Source: Ornithinimicrobium flavum
Lineage (GTDB): Bacteria; Actinomycetota; Actinomycetes; Actinomycetales; Dermatophilaceae
Direction of reading: 5' to 3'
Length of the DNA: 64,000 nucleotides
Assembly: GCF_004526345.1 (NCBI RefSeq)
Contig: NZ_CP038213.1
Span: 992,001-1,056,000 of the forward strand
Position 1 is the stretch's first letter. Every line of letters begins with the position of its first letter. Below are positions 56,741-62,208 of the stretch, piece by piece. The notes beneath the pieces were generated by a model, which saw only the letters and a program-made list of their open reading frames with translations, ran no database searches and was not told the origin of the DNA. The position numbers were made by a program, and so were the translations under genes.

Positions 56741-56800
56741 TCTTCCCCCAGAACGCGAGGCACAGGGCCGCAACGGTCCTCGACCGAAGGGATGGCTGTC

Positions 56801-57250
56801 ATGGCCGACGAGGCGGACGCCACCGGGACCCAGCAGTTCCGGCGGCAGCTGGATGACTTCCTCTCCACCGCCGCCCCCGGGCTCGAGGAGGTCACGACCT
56901 CCAAGGCCTTCGGCACCATGCTGGCGCAGGCGGTGGGCAACATGGTGGCCCTCCACCGGATCGGCAATGACGTGCTCGACCTGGCGATCCGCAACGTCCG
57001 CCTCGCCGGGCGCGCCGACGTCACCACGCTGCACAAGCAGCTGGCCCGCACCGAGGACAAGCTCGAGCACGTCCTGGAGGTCGTCGAACGGCTCGAGGAC
57101 GAGCTGGTCGCCGAGCGCCGGCGCAACGCCTCGGTGGCGCAGGCCCAGGCCGCGGGCGACGGGGACGACACCGACGAGACGCCGCCGACCACCACCCGCA
57201 CCACCCGTCGCGGCAGCGGCACCCGGCGGACCACCGGTCAGGACGGCTGA
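56801..57250 (+). CDS. PHA synthase accessory protein, PhaR/PhaE-like
   Basis: Protein of 149 residues. MLAQAVGNMVALHRIGNDVL and VRLAGRADVTTLHKQLARTE are followed by a coiled coil (DKLEHVLEVVERLEDELVAE). The RxDVxxLxxxLxxxE segment before the coiled coil resembles the end of PhaE and PhaR, the small subunits that class III and IV synthases need. The C-terminus is Thr/Arg-rich (TTTRTTRRGSGTRRTT) and basic. It lies 3 nt before phaC. ATG 56801 is about 9 nt after GAAGGG; ATG 56792 abuts that site. The assignment is an inference from pattern and position. Confidence 0.6.
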   Translation: MADEADATGTQQFRRQLDDFLSTAAPGLEEVTTSKAFGTMLAQAVGNMVALHRIGNDVLDLAIRNVRLAGRADVTTLHKQLARTEDKLEHVLEVVERLEDELVAERRRNASVAQAQAAGDGDDTDETPPTTTRTTRRGSGTRRTTGQDG

Positions 57251-57253
57251 GCC

Positions 57254-58318
57254 GTGCAGTCGCTCGTGCGGCAGCTGATCAAGCTCCCGGCCAACCTGCT
57301 CGAGTACTCCAACATCCGGCTCACCACCGCGGACGCCGTCGTCGGCTCCAGCGCCAAGGACGTCGTCTGGACCTATCGCAAGACCACGCTCTACCGCTAC
57401 CGCAGCAGCAACCGGACCCACCCCGTGCCGGTGCTGCTCACCTTCGCGCTGATCAACCGGCCCGACATCTTCGACCTGCGCCCGGGCAACTCCTTCGTCG
57501 AGTTCCTGCTCGATCACGGCTACGACGTCTACCTCGTGGACTGGGGGTATGCCGACGAGGAGGACGACGACCTCGGGCTGGGGGACTACGCCCTCAACTT
57601 CCTGCCCCGGGCGGTCCGCGAGGTGTGCCGCACGAGCGGTGCCGAGGAGATCTCGCTGGTCGGCTGGTGCATCGGTGCCGCCCTGTCGAGCATCTACCTC
57701 GCGGTCACGCCCGACGCGCCCGTCCGCAACTGGGTGCCGCTGACGATGCCCTTCGACTCCTCCAACAGCACCTACCAGACCTGGCTGGGCAGCGACGAGA
57801 TGGACCCGGACTGGCTGGTGCAGCACGCGGCGTACCTCCCCGGCGGCGCCGTCGACATCACCAACAAGCTCATGAAGCCGGTGCCCAACCTGGTGGGGAC
57901 CCCGCTGCGGCTGTGGCGCCAGGTCCAGGACGGCACGGTGGACAAGGCCGCCTACCAGCCGATGGCCAAGTGGGTCGGGGACAACCCCAACTTCTCGATC
58001 ACCGCCTTCTCCCAGTGGGTCACCTGGATCTACAAGGAGAACCGCCTGGCCACGGGGCGGCTGCGGGTGGACGGCAAGCTGGTCGACCTGTCCCGGATCA
58101 CCCAGTCGACGCTGGTCGTGACGGCCTCCGCCGACCACATCGCGCCCCGGCACGGCACGCTGCCCCTCTTCGACGTCCTGACCTGCGAGGACCTCGAGCA
58201 CCTCGACGGGGTCGGGGGCCACATCGGCCTCATGGCCGGCTCCCGTGCCCGTGGCGAGATCTGGCCCCGCATCGACGAGTGGCTCGCCCCCCGCAGCCAG
58301 GCCGAGCCCCGCGCCTGA
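57254..58318 (+). CDS. phaC: PHA synthase PhaC, class III/IV-like
   Basis: Polyhydroxyalkanoate synthase of 354 residues, the length of class III/IV PhaC. It polymerises 3-hydroxyacyl-CoA at the granule surface. The lipase-like box with cysteine is SLVGWCIGAALSSIY near residue 140. The catalytic aspartate is in VVTASADHIAPRHG and the histidine in VGGHIGLMAGSRA. VYLVDWGYADEEDDDLGL and FSQWVTWIYKENRL match the family. The start is GTG 57254. The adjoining PhaR/E-like protein is the likely obligate partner. Confidence 0.9.
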   Translation: MQSLVRQLIKLPANLLEYSNIRLTTADAVVGSSAKDVVWTYRKTTLYRYRSSNRTHPVPVLLTFALINRPDIFDLRPGNSFVEFLLDHGYDVYLVDWGYADEEDDDLGLGDYALNFLPRAVREVCRTSGAEEISLVGWCIGAALSSIYLAVTPDAPVRNWVPLTMPFDSSNSTYQTWLGSDEMDPDWLVQHAAYLPGGAVDITNKLMKPVPNLVGTPLRLWRQVQDGTVDKAAYQPMAKWVGDNPNFSITAFSQWVTWIYKENRLATGRLRVDGKLVDLSRITQSTLVVTASADHIAPRHGTLPLFDVLTCEDLEHLDGVGGHIGLMAGSRARGEIWPRIDEWLAPRSQAEPRA

Positions 58319-58357
58319 GACCACGACATACCCCATCCCCCACCGAAGGAGTTGCAG

Positions 58358-59176
<819 letters not shown>

Positions 59177-59271: not shown

Positions 59272-59574
59272 ATGGCCAGCACCACCACCACGCAGACCGC
59301 CCAGAAGCTCGCCCAGGAGACCACCCGCCAGTTCGAGCAGGGTGCCGAGCGGGTCAAGGAGTTCAACGCCGGTCTCGTCGAGTCCACCAAGTCGGCCACC
59401 CGCGTCGGTGTCGACAACTACGAGAAGGCCGCCAAGAGCGTCTTCGACCTGCAGCGTCAGATGGCCGGCACCAGCCAGGTCGAGTGGGTCACCTCCGTGG
59501 CCAACACCCAGATCCAGCTGGCCGAGGACATGACCGCCGCCTGGGCCAAGGCCGCGCGCGAGCTGCTCAAGTGA
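59272..59574 (+). CDS. phasin family protein
   Basis: Small protein of 100 residues, amphipathic and helical (QTAQKLAQETTRQFEQGAER, SATRVGVDNYEKAAKSVFDL, ANTQIQLAEDMTAAWAKAAR), with no Cys. Phasins coat PHA granules and set their size and number. It has its own promoter with an operator and its own strong terminator, so it is a separately controlled unit between phaB and the DUF3141 gene. GAAGGAG precedes the ATG. It lacks a basic DNA-binding tail. Confidence 0.85.
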   Translation: MASTTTTQTAQKLAQETTRQFEQGAERVKEFNAGLVESTKSATRVGVDNYEKAAKSVFDLQRQMAGTSQVEWVTSVANTQIQLAEDMTAAWAKAARELLK

Positions 59575-59605
59575 GCCCGGGGGCCTAGCGCCCCCCTCAC
59601 GCCGA

Positions 59606-59632
59606 CGGCCCTGCCCCATCGGGGCAGGGCCG
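59606..59632 (+). terminator. phasin gene terminator
   Basis: A perfect 12-bp stem cggccctgcccc/ggggcagggccg with a 3-nt loop, followed by ttctcgtg, 31 nt after the phasin stop. Confidence 0.8.
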
Positions 59633-59733
59633 TTCTCGTGTCCGACCGGCGATCCACGGCCCCCGGGTCTATCGTGGATCAACCCGTGGTCGTCGGCGCC
59701 GTGGCCCACGACCGTCCGCTCCCAGGAGGACCT

Positions 59734-61470
59734 TTGCCCAGCACCCTCACCCCCACCGTCCCGTTCGGCGTCGTCGACTCCATGGTCTCGGCCACCGTGG
59801 GGTCGTGGACCTCCATGGCCCGCGCCGGCCTGGACTACTGGTCGGGAGCCCTGGCGCGCCGGGCCACGCCGTTCGACCTGGGGCAGGACCTCACCTCGTG
59901 GTTGGCGGTGATGAACGACCGCGAGCGGCCGCAGTGGGCCAACGAGCACACCGTCGCCCGGGAGTGGCCGATCGCCCGGTTGCGCGACTACTCGACCGCC
60001 GACGCCGATGCGGGCATGGTCGCGACGATCATCCTGCCGCCCCAGGCGGGGCACGACTCCTCGATCGTCGACTACAGCCCGACGCAGAGCCAGGTCATGA
60101 CGGCCCGCGACAACGGCTGCCACCGGATCTTCGCCCTGGAGTGGGTGGGGGCGACGTCGGAGACCAAGGACACCAGCATCGAGGACTTCATGCAGCTTCT
60201 GCGTGAGGTCGTCGAGCTGGTCGGGGGCAGGGCCAACCTCGTCGGCGACTGCCAGGGCGGCTGGCTCGCCACGATCTTCACCGCGCTGCACCCCGAACTG
60301 GTCAACAGCCTGGCCATCGCCGGGGCCCCCATCGACTTCCACGCCGGCGAGCCGCTCATCCACGACTGGGTGCAGCTGCTGACGCCGCGGGGCGACATGA
60401 ACTTCTACCGCTCCGTCGTCGCCGCCAACGATGGGGTCCTGCCGGGGAGCTTCCTCCTGCACGGCTTCATGACGCTGCAGCCGGACCAGGAGCTGGACCG
60501 CCAGCTGCAGCTGCTGGCCAACCTGCACGACCCCGCCCACGTGGAGCGCTACCGCCGCTTCGAGAACTGGTTCCAGTGGACCCAGTCGCTCCCCGGGGAG
60601 TTCTACCTCTGGGTCGTCGAGCACCTCTTCGCCGGCAACGAGCTCATCCGGGGCGAGCTGGTGGTCGAGGGCCGCACGGTGCAGCTCGCCGACATCACCT
60701 GCCCGCTGTTCCTCATGGCGGGCGAGACCGACCACATCACGCCCGCGCCGCAGGTGTGGGCGCTGGCGGACCACGCGTCCACCCCCGAGGACCAGGTGGG
60801 CCGGCAGTCGTCGACCGGCGGGCACCTCGGGCTGTTCATGAGCCACGAGTCCCTCGAGCGCCACTGGTCGATCATCTTCGCCGAGATGGCCGCCCTCTCC
60901 AGCCCCGGCGCGGACGTGCCCCAGGAGCTGACCGACGAGCCCACCGGGCACGGCGAGTTCGTGGTGGACGTCGTGACCACCCCGCGCCCAGCAGTCCGGG
61001 CCAGGCGCTCGAGCACCCGTAAGGCGGCCGCCGCCACCCGGGCCGCCACCAAGCGTGCGCCCCGGGCCAAGGCTGCAGCCCCGTCCGCCGCCGCGACGGA
61101 GGCCCCGGTGACGGAGGCGTCGGTGACGGAAGCCTCGGTGACGGAAGCCTCCGCGAAGCGGGCCGCCGCGACAGGGGCTTCGGCGACGGAGGCCCCGGCG
61201 AAGCCCTCCACGGTGGGGGAGCCCGCGCCCGCCCAGGACACACCCGCTCCCCGTGCCCGTCAGGCCACCTCCACCGGCAAGGCCGCGGCGGACAAGCCGG
61301 CGCCTCGTGCCCGCAAGGTCGCGTCGTCCGGCACGGCCACCGCGGACAAGCCGGCGCCTCGTGCCCGCAAGGCCGCGCCCCGCAAGGCCGCCAGCAAGCC
61401 CGCCTCCGCTGCCCGCAAGGCCGCGCCCCAGCAGGAGAAGCTCACGGACGAGGCCGGCCCGCAGGCCTGA
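59734..61470 (+). CDS. DUF3141/PhaC-like alpha-beta hydrolase with a Lys/Ala/Pro-rich tail
   Basis: Protein of 578 residues. Residues ~1-390 are a PhaC-like hydrolase of the DUF3141 type. The nucleophile box is LVGDCQGGWLATIF with cysteine, then LAIAGAPIDFHAGEPLI, FYLWVVEHLFAGNELIRGEL, the aspartate in MAGETDHITPAPQVW and the histidine in GGHLGLFMS. Residues ~410-578 are a histone-H1-like tail with many KAAA, RAPRAKAAA, KPAPRARK and VTEAS repeats. Such tails in PhaF and PhaM bind DNA and PHA granules. I chose TTG 59734 because CCAGGAGG lies 5 nt upstream; earlier in-frame starts lack a site. The tail-enzyme fusion is unusual. Confidence 0.82.
   Translation: MPSTLTPTVPFGVVDSMVSATVGSWTSMARAGLDYWSGALARRATPFDLGQDLTSWLAVMNDRERPQWANEHTVAREWPIARLRDYSTADADAGMVATIILPPQAGHDSSIVDYSPTQSQVMTARDNGCHRIFALEWVGATSETKDTSIEDFMQLLREVVELVGGRANLVGDCQGGWLATIFTALHPELVNSLAIAGAPIDFHAGEPLIHDWVQLLTPRGDMNFYRSVVAANDGVLPGSFLLHGFMTLQPDQELDRQLQLLANLHDPAHVERYRRFENWFQWTQSLPGEFYLWVVEHLFAGNELIRGELVVEGRTVQLADITCPLFLMAGETDHITPAPQVWALADHASTPEDQVGRQSSTGGHLGLFMSHESLERHWSIIFAEMAALSSPGADVPQELTDEPTGHGEFVVDVVTTPRPAVRARRSSTRKAAAATRAATKRAPRAKAAAPSAAATEAPVTEASVTEASVTEASAKRAAATGASATEAPAKPSTVGEPAPAQDTPAPRARQATSTGKAAADKPAPRARKVASSGTATADKPAPRARKAAPRKAASKPASAARKAAPQQEKLTDEAGPQA
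61010..61440 (+). repeat. in-frame repeats encoding the Lys/Ala/Pro tail
   Basis: Near 61110-61155 the unit gtgacggaagcctcg recurs about three times. Near 61293-61385 two copies of about 45 bp (gacaagccggcgcctcgtgc...) are nearly identical. Confidence 0.75.
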
Positions 61471-61556: not shown

Positions 61557-61623
61557 GATAGACAAGGAAGATCGCGATGGACCACGTTCTCGACTTGGTC
61601 CATCGCGATCTTCCTTGTCTATC
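61557..61623. terminator. perfect 28-bp inverted repeat, probable bidirectional terminator
   Basis: The left arm 61557-61584 (gatagacaaggaagatcg...) and the right arm 61596-61623 are exact reverse complements with an 11-nt loop (cgttctcgact). It is A/T-richer than its surroundings and lies between the convergent DUF3141 and XRE genes. No poly-T follows. A termination role is inferred from position. Confidence 0.65.
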
Positions 61624-61627
61624 CCGG

Positions 61628-61712
61628 CCGGCCGCCCCTGCGCCGGGGCGTCGGGGCGACTGGATCCCCGTCCGGCCGCCCCTGCGCCGGGGCGTCGGGG
61701 CGACTGCATCCC
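61628..61712. repeat. two tandem copies of a 44-bp GC-rich unit
   Basis: ccggccgcccctgcgccggg... at 61628 recurs at 61672 with one clear mismatch (tggatccc versus tgcatccc). It lies between the inverted repeat and the end of the XRE gene. The 61471-61556 stretch before it shows nothing distinct. Confidence 0.75.
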
Positions 61713-61719
61713 GGCGGCG

Positions 61720-62208
61720 TCAGGACCCGTCATCCACCTCGGTGTCCTGCGCCCCGGCGCCGCTGCCCGGCGCCTCAGGACCGGCGCCGCTGCTCCGCGC
61801 CTCGGCCTCGCTGCCCGGCGCCTCAGGACCGGCCCCGCTGCCCCGCGCCTCGGCGCGGCCGGCCCCGGCGGCAGCGGCGTTCGCCCGCACGAAGGACCGG
61901 TAGATCTCGGCGAGCGAGTCGCGCTGGCCAGGCGTGAGCTCCTCGGCGCCCTCGATCGCCGTCAGCAGGTCGGTGTGCTCCACGTCCTCGGCGCCCTGCT
62001 CGTAGAGCTCCTCCACGCTCATCCCCAGCGCGGTCGCCAGCCCGGCGGCCACCGCCTCCGACGGCGCGCGCAGCCCTCGCTCGATCTGGGACAGGTAGGG
62101 GTTGGAGATGCCCACCATCGTCGACACCTGGCGCATCGACAGGTCGGCCATCTCCCGCTGCTGGCGGATCAGGGCCCCCATGAAGTTCTTCTGCCGCTGG
62201 CTGACCAT
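61720..62208 (-). CDS. XRE-family helix-turn-helix regulator
   Basis: Protein of 162 residues. The HTH domain is LIRQQREMADLSMRQVSTMV, then GISNPYLSQIERGLRAPSEA and VAAGLATALGMSVEELYEQG. The second half is a short helical part followed by a Gly/Ala/Glu/Ser/Pro tail with three copies of GAGPEAPGS-like repeats. The HTH resembles the regulator beside the phasin-like HBHA gene in mycobacteria (Rv0474). It might control the phasin operator, but this is only inferred. ATG 62208 lies 6 nt after TAGGCT (62215-62220, minus strand). Confidence 0.85.
   Translation of the reverse strand: MVSQRQKNFMGALIRQQREMADLSMRQVSTMVGISNPYLSQIERGLRAPSEAVAAGLATALGMSVEELYEQGAEDVEHTDLLTAIEGAEELTPGQRDSLAEIYRSFVRANAAAAGAGRAEARGSGAGPEAPGSEAEARSSGAGPEAPGSGAGAQDTEVDDGS

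Follow-up and report, generated by a model that had tools for sequence, protein, structure and literature searches.

A DUF3141 enzyme with a histone-like tail in a PHA operon of Ornithinimicrobium flavum: a candidate granule anchor on an unusual carrier

Among the described systems that come closest to the one presented here, PhaM attaches PHA granules to the nucleoid through lysines in PAKKA motifs (PMC9049629; PMC3556143), and PhaF of Pseudomonas carries eight C-terminal AAKP-like repeats, binds DNA non-specifically and functions in granule segregation (PMC5658603). In Rhodococcus jostii, MLDS binds DNA through C-terminal PAKKA motifs, and a Lys-to-Glu exchange abolishes the binding (PMC5504291), while AlgP of Pseudomonas aeruginosa has a KPAA-type tail of 154 residues that is needed for the even spacing of polyphosphate granules (PMC9239181). 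Such tails are established for PhaF and PhaM, which a preliminary description of the present locus had named, and likewise for MLDS and AlgP; as far as the cited portions of these papers go, none of the four is an enzyme of the polymer (PMC5658603, PMC9049629, PMC5504291, PMC9239181). No published PHA enzyme with a histone-like tail was found among the listings of open-licence literature searched.

The window analysed here, a stretch of 64,000 nucleotides from Ornithinimicrobium flavum, encodes such an architecture (Table 1). Like PhaM of Ralstonia eutropha (Cupriavidus necator), it is a putative granule protein with a histone-like C-terminus, but PhaM is a phasin-like PhaC activator and no enzyme, and the window's tail holds only one PAKK/AAKP-like match. 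The other half of PhaF is a phasin domain, whereas that of the present protein is an alpha/beta-hydrolase. With MLDS it shares the actinobacterial host, the storage-body setting, the C-terminal tail and a regulator alongside (MLDSR in the case of MLDS). MLDS, however, is the major protein of lipid droplets rather than of PHA granules, with no enzymatic role described in the cited part of the source (PMC5504291), and AlgP, located on polyphosphate granules, is in the cited part of its description a DNA-binding protein with no alpha/beta-hydrolase. From the side of the enzyme, the predicted fold, the G-x-C-x-G-G box and the C-D-H triad are those of PHA synthases (PhaC), although the protein falls below the cut-offs of classes I, II and III and accompanies another PhaC in its operon. 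It also resembles the proteobacterial DUF3141 proteins, for some of which the Pfam family is named, and domains 35% identical to its own are found on Microvirga and Paraburkholderia plasmids. The two such plasmid proteins examined, of about 300 and 360 aa as annotated, are too short for such a tail, and the 11-kb stretches around them have no other PHA gene annotated.

The enzyme, its operon and its possible reaction

The open reading frame of the enzyme is real. A single frame runs uninterrupted from a GTG at 59638 to the stop, the TTG start is preceded 4 nt upstream by AGGAGG, and this start is aligned with that of the orthologue of Brevibacterium yomogidense. The domain passes the gathering score of the Pfam model (84.8 against 29.7 bits), and the same model was matched in 15 of 15 aligned orthologues (E <= 0.001), in all of which C173 (GDCQGG), D333 (DHITP) and H364 (GHLGLF) are invariant; the DUF3141/PhaC-type hydrolase with a complete Cys-Asp-His set of the preliminary description is thereby borne out. 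The G-x-C-x-G-G box and the Cys-Asp-His set by which PHA synthases are recognised are both present, and in the alignment with PhaC of Cupriavidus the Cys and Asp fall in matching columns. All family matches of the domain are to alpha/beta-hydrolases, with no phasin-type PHA-binding domain beside the tail; actinobacterial phasins hit no model in this test either, yet the enzyme fold is clear. With the model of the intracellular PHA depolymerase PhaZ (TIGR01849), the protein reaches 58.8 bits (59.3 in the genome search), below the cut-off of 300.75.

Table 1. Features of the PHA operon and of the tailed enzyme in the window
Feature	Coordinates	Strand	Basis
152-aa protein directly before phaC (PhaE position), short Arg/Thr-rich end	56792..57250	+	ORF; homologues before PhaC in relatives
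Class III-like PhaC, 354 aa, tail-less	57254..58318	+	TIGR01836 264.9 bits, below cut-off 365.3
PhaB-like acetoacetyl-CoA reductase (SDR)	58352..59176	+	TIGR01829 279.5 bits, below cut-off 302.1
Phasin-like protein, 100 aa, tail-less	59272..59574	+	Position and conservation in relatives
Inverted repeat in the phasin/enzyme gap	59598..59640		20-nt arms, 85% complementary, 3 nt apart
DUF3141 enzyme with tail, 578 aa	TTG 59734 to stop 61470	+	ORF
DUF3141 (PF11339) / PHA-synthase-fold domain, residues 1-399 with Cys173, Asp333, His364	59734..60930	+	Pfam and alignment
Ala/Pro/Thr/Arg/Lys-rich tail, residues 400-578, net +15	60931..61467	+	Composition, charge windows, frame control, repeats
Near-perfect inverted repeat between the convergent enzyme and HTH genes	61557..61623		31-nt arms, 97% complementary, 5 nt apart
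Two tandem copies of a 44-nt unit, downstream of the preceding repeat	61623..61710		95% identical
HTH_3 (XRE-type) regulator, convergent neighbour of the enzyme	61720..62208	-	Pfam HTH_3 51.1 bits

Upstream of the enzyme lie PHA genes that recur near its homologues. The protein in the PhaE position has no family match of note in Pfam or NCBIfam, and the phasin-like protein, which ends without a tail as first described, matched no phasin model of either collection, so that we infer its name. Around the enzyme in 86 loci, tblastn found homologues of PhaB or other SDRs in 55 (unrelated SDRs included), of the HTH regulator in 51, of PhaC of any class in 50, of the phasin in at least 37 and of the PhaE-position protein in at least 21, the last two counts being lower bounds because contig ends truncate many of the loci and small proteins are prone to divergence. 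Genome searches returned phasin homologues in 6 of 287 genomes of the order, five of these six also with the enzyme, and homologues of the PhaE-position protein in 2 of 296 genomes of the phylum, namely the genome itself and one other (G1101) in which the enzyme is present. In the two clades of tailed enzymes defined below, A and B, every one of the 13 loci (seven from A, six from B) has a PhaC homologue in the enzyme's vicinity, which indicates that the enzyme accompanies a synthase and does not replace it.

Compared with the window's PhaC, this companion synthase shows 71-79% identity at the other six loci of clade A and 24-27% at the six of clade B; in clade B, the sole synthase scanned (L038) is of class I type, with 527.1 bits against a cut-off of 622.65. 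The PhaC proteins that are 71-79% identical come from Brevibacterium, Micrococcus and Citricoccus records, and the five genus mates that have the enzyme fall in clade B, beside a larger PhaC with 24-27% identity. Since the window's PhaC is closer to those records than to the PhaC of its genus mates, it is likely that the operon as a whole was transferred horizontally or lost differentially.

The regulator is reminiscent of MLDSR, which in Rhodococcus binds lipid droplets and forms a pair with MLDS (PMC5504291, in the part cited), and could, by analogy, be a granule-sensing autoregulator. The inverted repeat that separates it from the enzyme gene is perhaps a two-way terminator; a 28-nt arm of it occurs nowhere else in the genome, allowing up to 3 mismatches. 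That in the phasin/enzyme gap may separate the transcription of these two genes, and it is absent from the output of the terminator scan, which gave one terminator-like site, a count not above that of shuffled sequences. The promoter scan gave no sigma-70-type promoter.

The reaction is a question separate from that of tethering, and the likelihoods attached to the two do not add up to a single whole. That the tailed enzyme is the main polymerase is improbable: the tail-less PhaC of the operon fits the class III model far better (264.9 against 104.6 bits, both below 365.3), the C-D-H triad has been reported in PhaZ and not in PHA synthase alone, and the enzyme lies below the cut-offs of both families. 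Given the separate phaC three genes upstream, the enzyme is no less likely to turn over or remodel the polymer than to make the bulk of it, and polymer turnover is put forward tentatively as its role, at somewhat short of an even chance. This role would be free in the genome, since neither of the two depolymerase families searched, TIGR01849 and NF050089, gave a match above cut-off there, NF050089 being a weak test, as none of 14 genomes gave a control score up to the cut-off. Among the structure matches listed there was no TIGR01849-type PhaZ, which in itself proves nothing. In the cited parts of two publications, a DUF3141 protein of Pseudomonas umsongensis in a PHA context is likened to class III PhaC (PMC8601165), and one of Jeongeupia is listed as phaZ (PMC8050969).

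In the alternative, the tailed enzyme is itself a PHA polymerase, and synthesis and attachment would reside in one protein, as had been proposed at the outset; in that form the proposal was not supported. It is unlikely in view of the PhaC homologue in every locus of the tailed clades, the low class III score, the depolymerase searches, which make turnover possible for the enzyme within the limits of the NF050089 control, and the phaZ listing in Jeongeupia. Roles other than turnover and polymerisation take up the remaining likelihood.

Composition, distribution and other carriers of the tail

The 179 residues that follow the domain comprise A 54, T 20, P 20, R 17, K 14, S 13, E 10 and V 10, that is, 30% Ala, 11% Pro, 11% Thr, 9.5% Arg and 7.8% Lys. 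Basic blocks at about 412-447 and 508-568 enclose a net-acidic TEASV block, and the DNA contains tandem units of 15 and 54 nt. The earlier account of about 170 residues of Lys/Ala/Pro repeats was roughly right, but overstated the lysine. The tail is of low complexity and, from its composition, presumably disordered. PAKK/AAKP-like matches number 5 to 14 in the seven other rows counted, against the one of the window.

The tail is not a random end, as lysine reaches about five times the level of the proteome sample (1.5% of 106,309 residues, from gene calls on 20 stretches of this genome) and is not enriched in the other frames: the last 159 residues have 8.8% lysine in frame, and the other five frames of the same DNA have 0-1.3%. 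Together with its retention in relatives, this speaks against the random low-complexity end that the preliminary description had itself considered. A six-frame scan of the window and the 20 sampled stretches (464 kb) found similar lysine-rich stretches in 5 of 2541 ORFs, namely the tailed enzyme, two proteins that we take to be Ku-like and ribosomal-L15-like, and two frames that are likely spurious. Outside this sample, one of the two HU-family proteins of the genome has a lysine-rich end.

At E <= 0.001, 6 of the 31 genus genomes and 37 of the 186 family genomes contain matches to the enzyme; by score, true orthologues in the family number 10, including the own one, and are 49-62% identical. 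At E <= 1e-20, matches occur in 7 genomes of the order (396 searched), 3 of the class (394) and 37 of the phylum (396), of which the two non-self class matches and all but one of the non-self phylum matches are 25-37% identical and were not counted as orthologues. A scan of named genomes returned no relatives with the single protein as query and 108 with an alignment as query, of which 80 loci were kept.

Across relatives the architecture is recurrent. With a threshold of 39 residues, a K/A/P-type tail is present in 12 of 87 distinct rows of the comparison, at lengths from 39 to 244 residues, and the other 75, including a few with a truncated or ambiguous end, are without it, so the tail is not needed for the enzyme. 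The tailed rows form two clades, clade A with the window, L093, L094, L096, L097 and L098 (support 100/97 together with L100) and clade B with L038, L041, L043, L044, L045 and L148 (99/97), and tail-less rows fall between them. All six rows of clade B, with domains that share about 50% identity with that of the window, are tailed, with 12-23% lysine and a net charge of +13 to +30 in five of the six (L045, +5). Within clade A the net charge is +15 in the window, +12 in L097, +6 in L098 (open end), +1 in L094 and L096 and 0 in L093, so that three of its six tailed rows, among them the nearest homologue of the window (L093), are nearly neutral. The tails of L098 and L148 run off their contigs and are lower bounds; L040 duplicates L148 and was dropped. 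L106, with 154 residues past the domain that lack lysine-rich character and an apparent read-through, was not counted as tailed, and L100 shifts frame near its end, where the other frame resembles the end of L096.

A single origin of the tail on the enzyme was rejected: in an AU test on a subset of 40 rows out of 87, picked so as to include the two tailed clades with their neighbours, a joint clade is 120 lnL units worse (AU p 8e-65, a value that overstates because the groups were defined with a first tree already in view). The fewest changes of the tail on the tree are two, a count that does not tell gain from loss and leaves out L098, L100 and L106; the last two were placed by their first 360 residues, which in L100 include some past the frame shift. 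L154, with 36 residues, would be tailed under another threshold and raise the count to three; it lies outside the 40-row set, for which the count is two. Nine Pseudonocardia-type enzymes (L139, L140, L145, L147, L150, L153, L154, L164 and L169) have in common a short end of 19-36 residues closing in a DTPRVPAP-like motif, perhaps a docking motif.

Lysine-rich stretches also occur on other proteins of these operons. When 90 loci (1.22 Mb, 6688 ORFs) were scanned in six frames, the result was 18 rows, or 17 once a duplicate is removed (L084 is the same locus as L109): ten on the enzyme, one on a phasin, one on a PhaE-position protein and five on other, non-granule ORFs, the threshold missing the enzyme tails of L094 and L096. 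The phasin, of Enemella dayhoffiae (L095, 3277-3936), has an N-terminal stretch, and the enzyme of that locus has an end of 22 residues. This is a second phasin, in which the K/A/P stretch is followed by QAKQFTEQ-type repeats. The PhaE-position protein, of a Kineosporiaceae MAG (L109, 2448-3146), has a histone-like C-terminal tail of the KRATVKRAAVK type, and the enzyme there ends 2 residues past its domain. A scan of C-terminal ends at lysine >= 7% with a GC3-based gene caller returned the enzyme only, both of these proteins being absent from its output. To judge by the sequences, these two carriers are the observation that most favours a selected anchor. The stricter idea of exactly one tail per operon was discarded, as two non-enzyme carriers cannot show exclusivity: with 12 tailed enzymes and 2 other carriers among about 87 loci, chance overlap is well under one locus.

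Possible functions of the tail

The best reading of the protein, held at about an even chance and by analogy, is that of a PHA-granule DUF3141 enzyme with a nucleoid tether tail like those of PhaF, PhaM and MLDS. On this reading the polymer would be acted upon by a domain seated on the granule, and the C-terminal tail would tether the granule to the nucleoid through sequence-independent, mainly electrostatic DNA binding; granules would in this way be kept spread over the chromosome and shared at division. The operon setting, the lysine enrichment in one frame only against a GC-rich background, the two tailed clades with their lysine-rich clade B members, the stretches on the Enemella and Kineosporiaceae proteins, the scarcity of similar stretches in the own genome and the precedents of MLDS, PhaM, PhaF and AlgP, in the portions cited, all argue for it. 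Against it, the window's tail is weakly basic (+15 in 179 residues), with an acidic block and its single PAKK/AAKP-like match; the tails of L093, L094 and L096 carry next to no net charge; 75 of the 87 rows do without one, and lysine-rich stretches are found on non-granule ORFs of the neighbourhoods too. For clade A, this leaves either weak tethering or another or further role of the tail. The idea of an anchor is plausible by analogy, and that of synthesis and attachment in one protein is weaker.

Rather improbable, yet to be weighed seriously, is a disordered surface module that spaces granules or concentrates proteins (as a brush, a condensate or by binding a different polyanion, for instance polyphosphate or RNA), with no particular DNA tether. 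The nearly neutral tails of clade A and the acidic block of the window's tail are consistent with it, as is AlgP, whose tail sits on polyphosphate granules and for which phase separation is discussed in the cited part of the source (PMC9239181). Clade B, however, has strongly lysine-rich tails, and those tails of like composition that are known from PHA granules or from lipid droplets do bind DNA, as the cited portions describe them (PMC5504291, PMC5658603, PMC9049629). A neutral expansion of low-complexity repeats at a tolerant C-terminus would account for the tandem 15-nt and 54-nt units, for the wide range of lengths and for the many rows without a tail, but it is improbable given that lysine is enriched in one frame only, that the tail is kept throughout clade B despite domains only about half identical to the window's, and that two other PHA-operon proteins have such stretches. 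An assembly or frame artefact is scarcely credible, since, although the orthologue L100 does shift frame near its end, the window has a single open frame in a one-contig genome and 11 other rows from different genomes have the same architecture.

The architecture of an enzyme domain with a histone-like tail is real and recurrent, and its most plausible interpretation is a granule anchor of a known kind on a carrier that is unusual for it. A broader proposal is that the nucleoid anchor of actinobacterial PHA operons is a portable low-complexity module that has switched carriers, placed at least twice on the DUF3141 enzyme, once on the N-terminus of a phasin (Enemella) and once on a PhaE-position protein (Kineosporiaceae MAG); it is possible, and offered with less than even confidence. 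The sharing of granules at division has so far been worked out on separate structural proteins (PhaF, PhaM, MLDS and AlgP). If the anchor is a granule enzyme, polymer metabolism and chromosome position would be linked in one polypeptide, and, should the module be portable, its presence on the enzyme would make polymer turnover itself chromosome-bound. If the anchor moves between granule proteins, selection would keep its composition and not its sequence.
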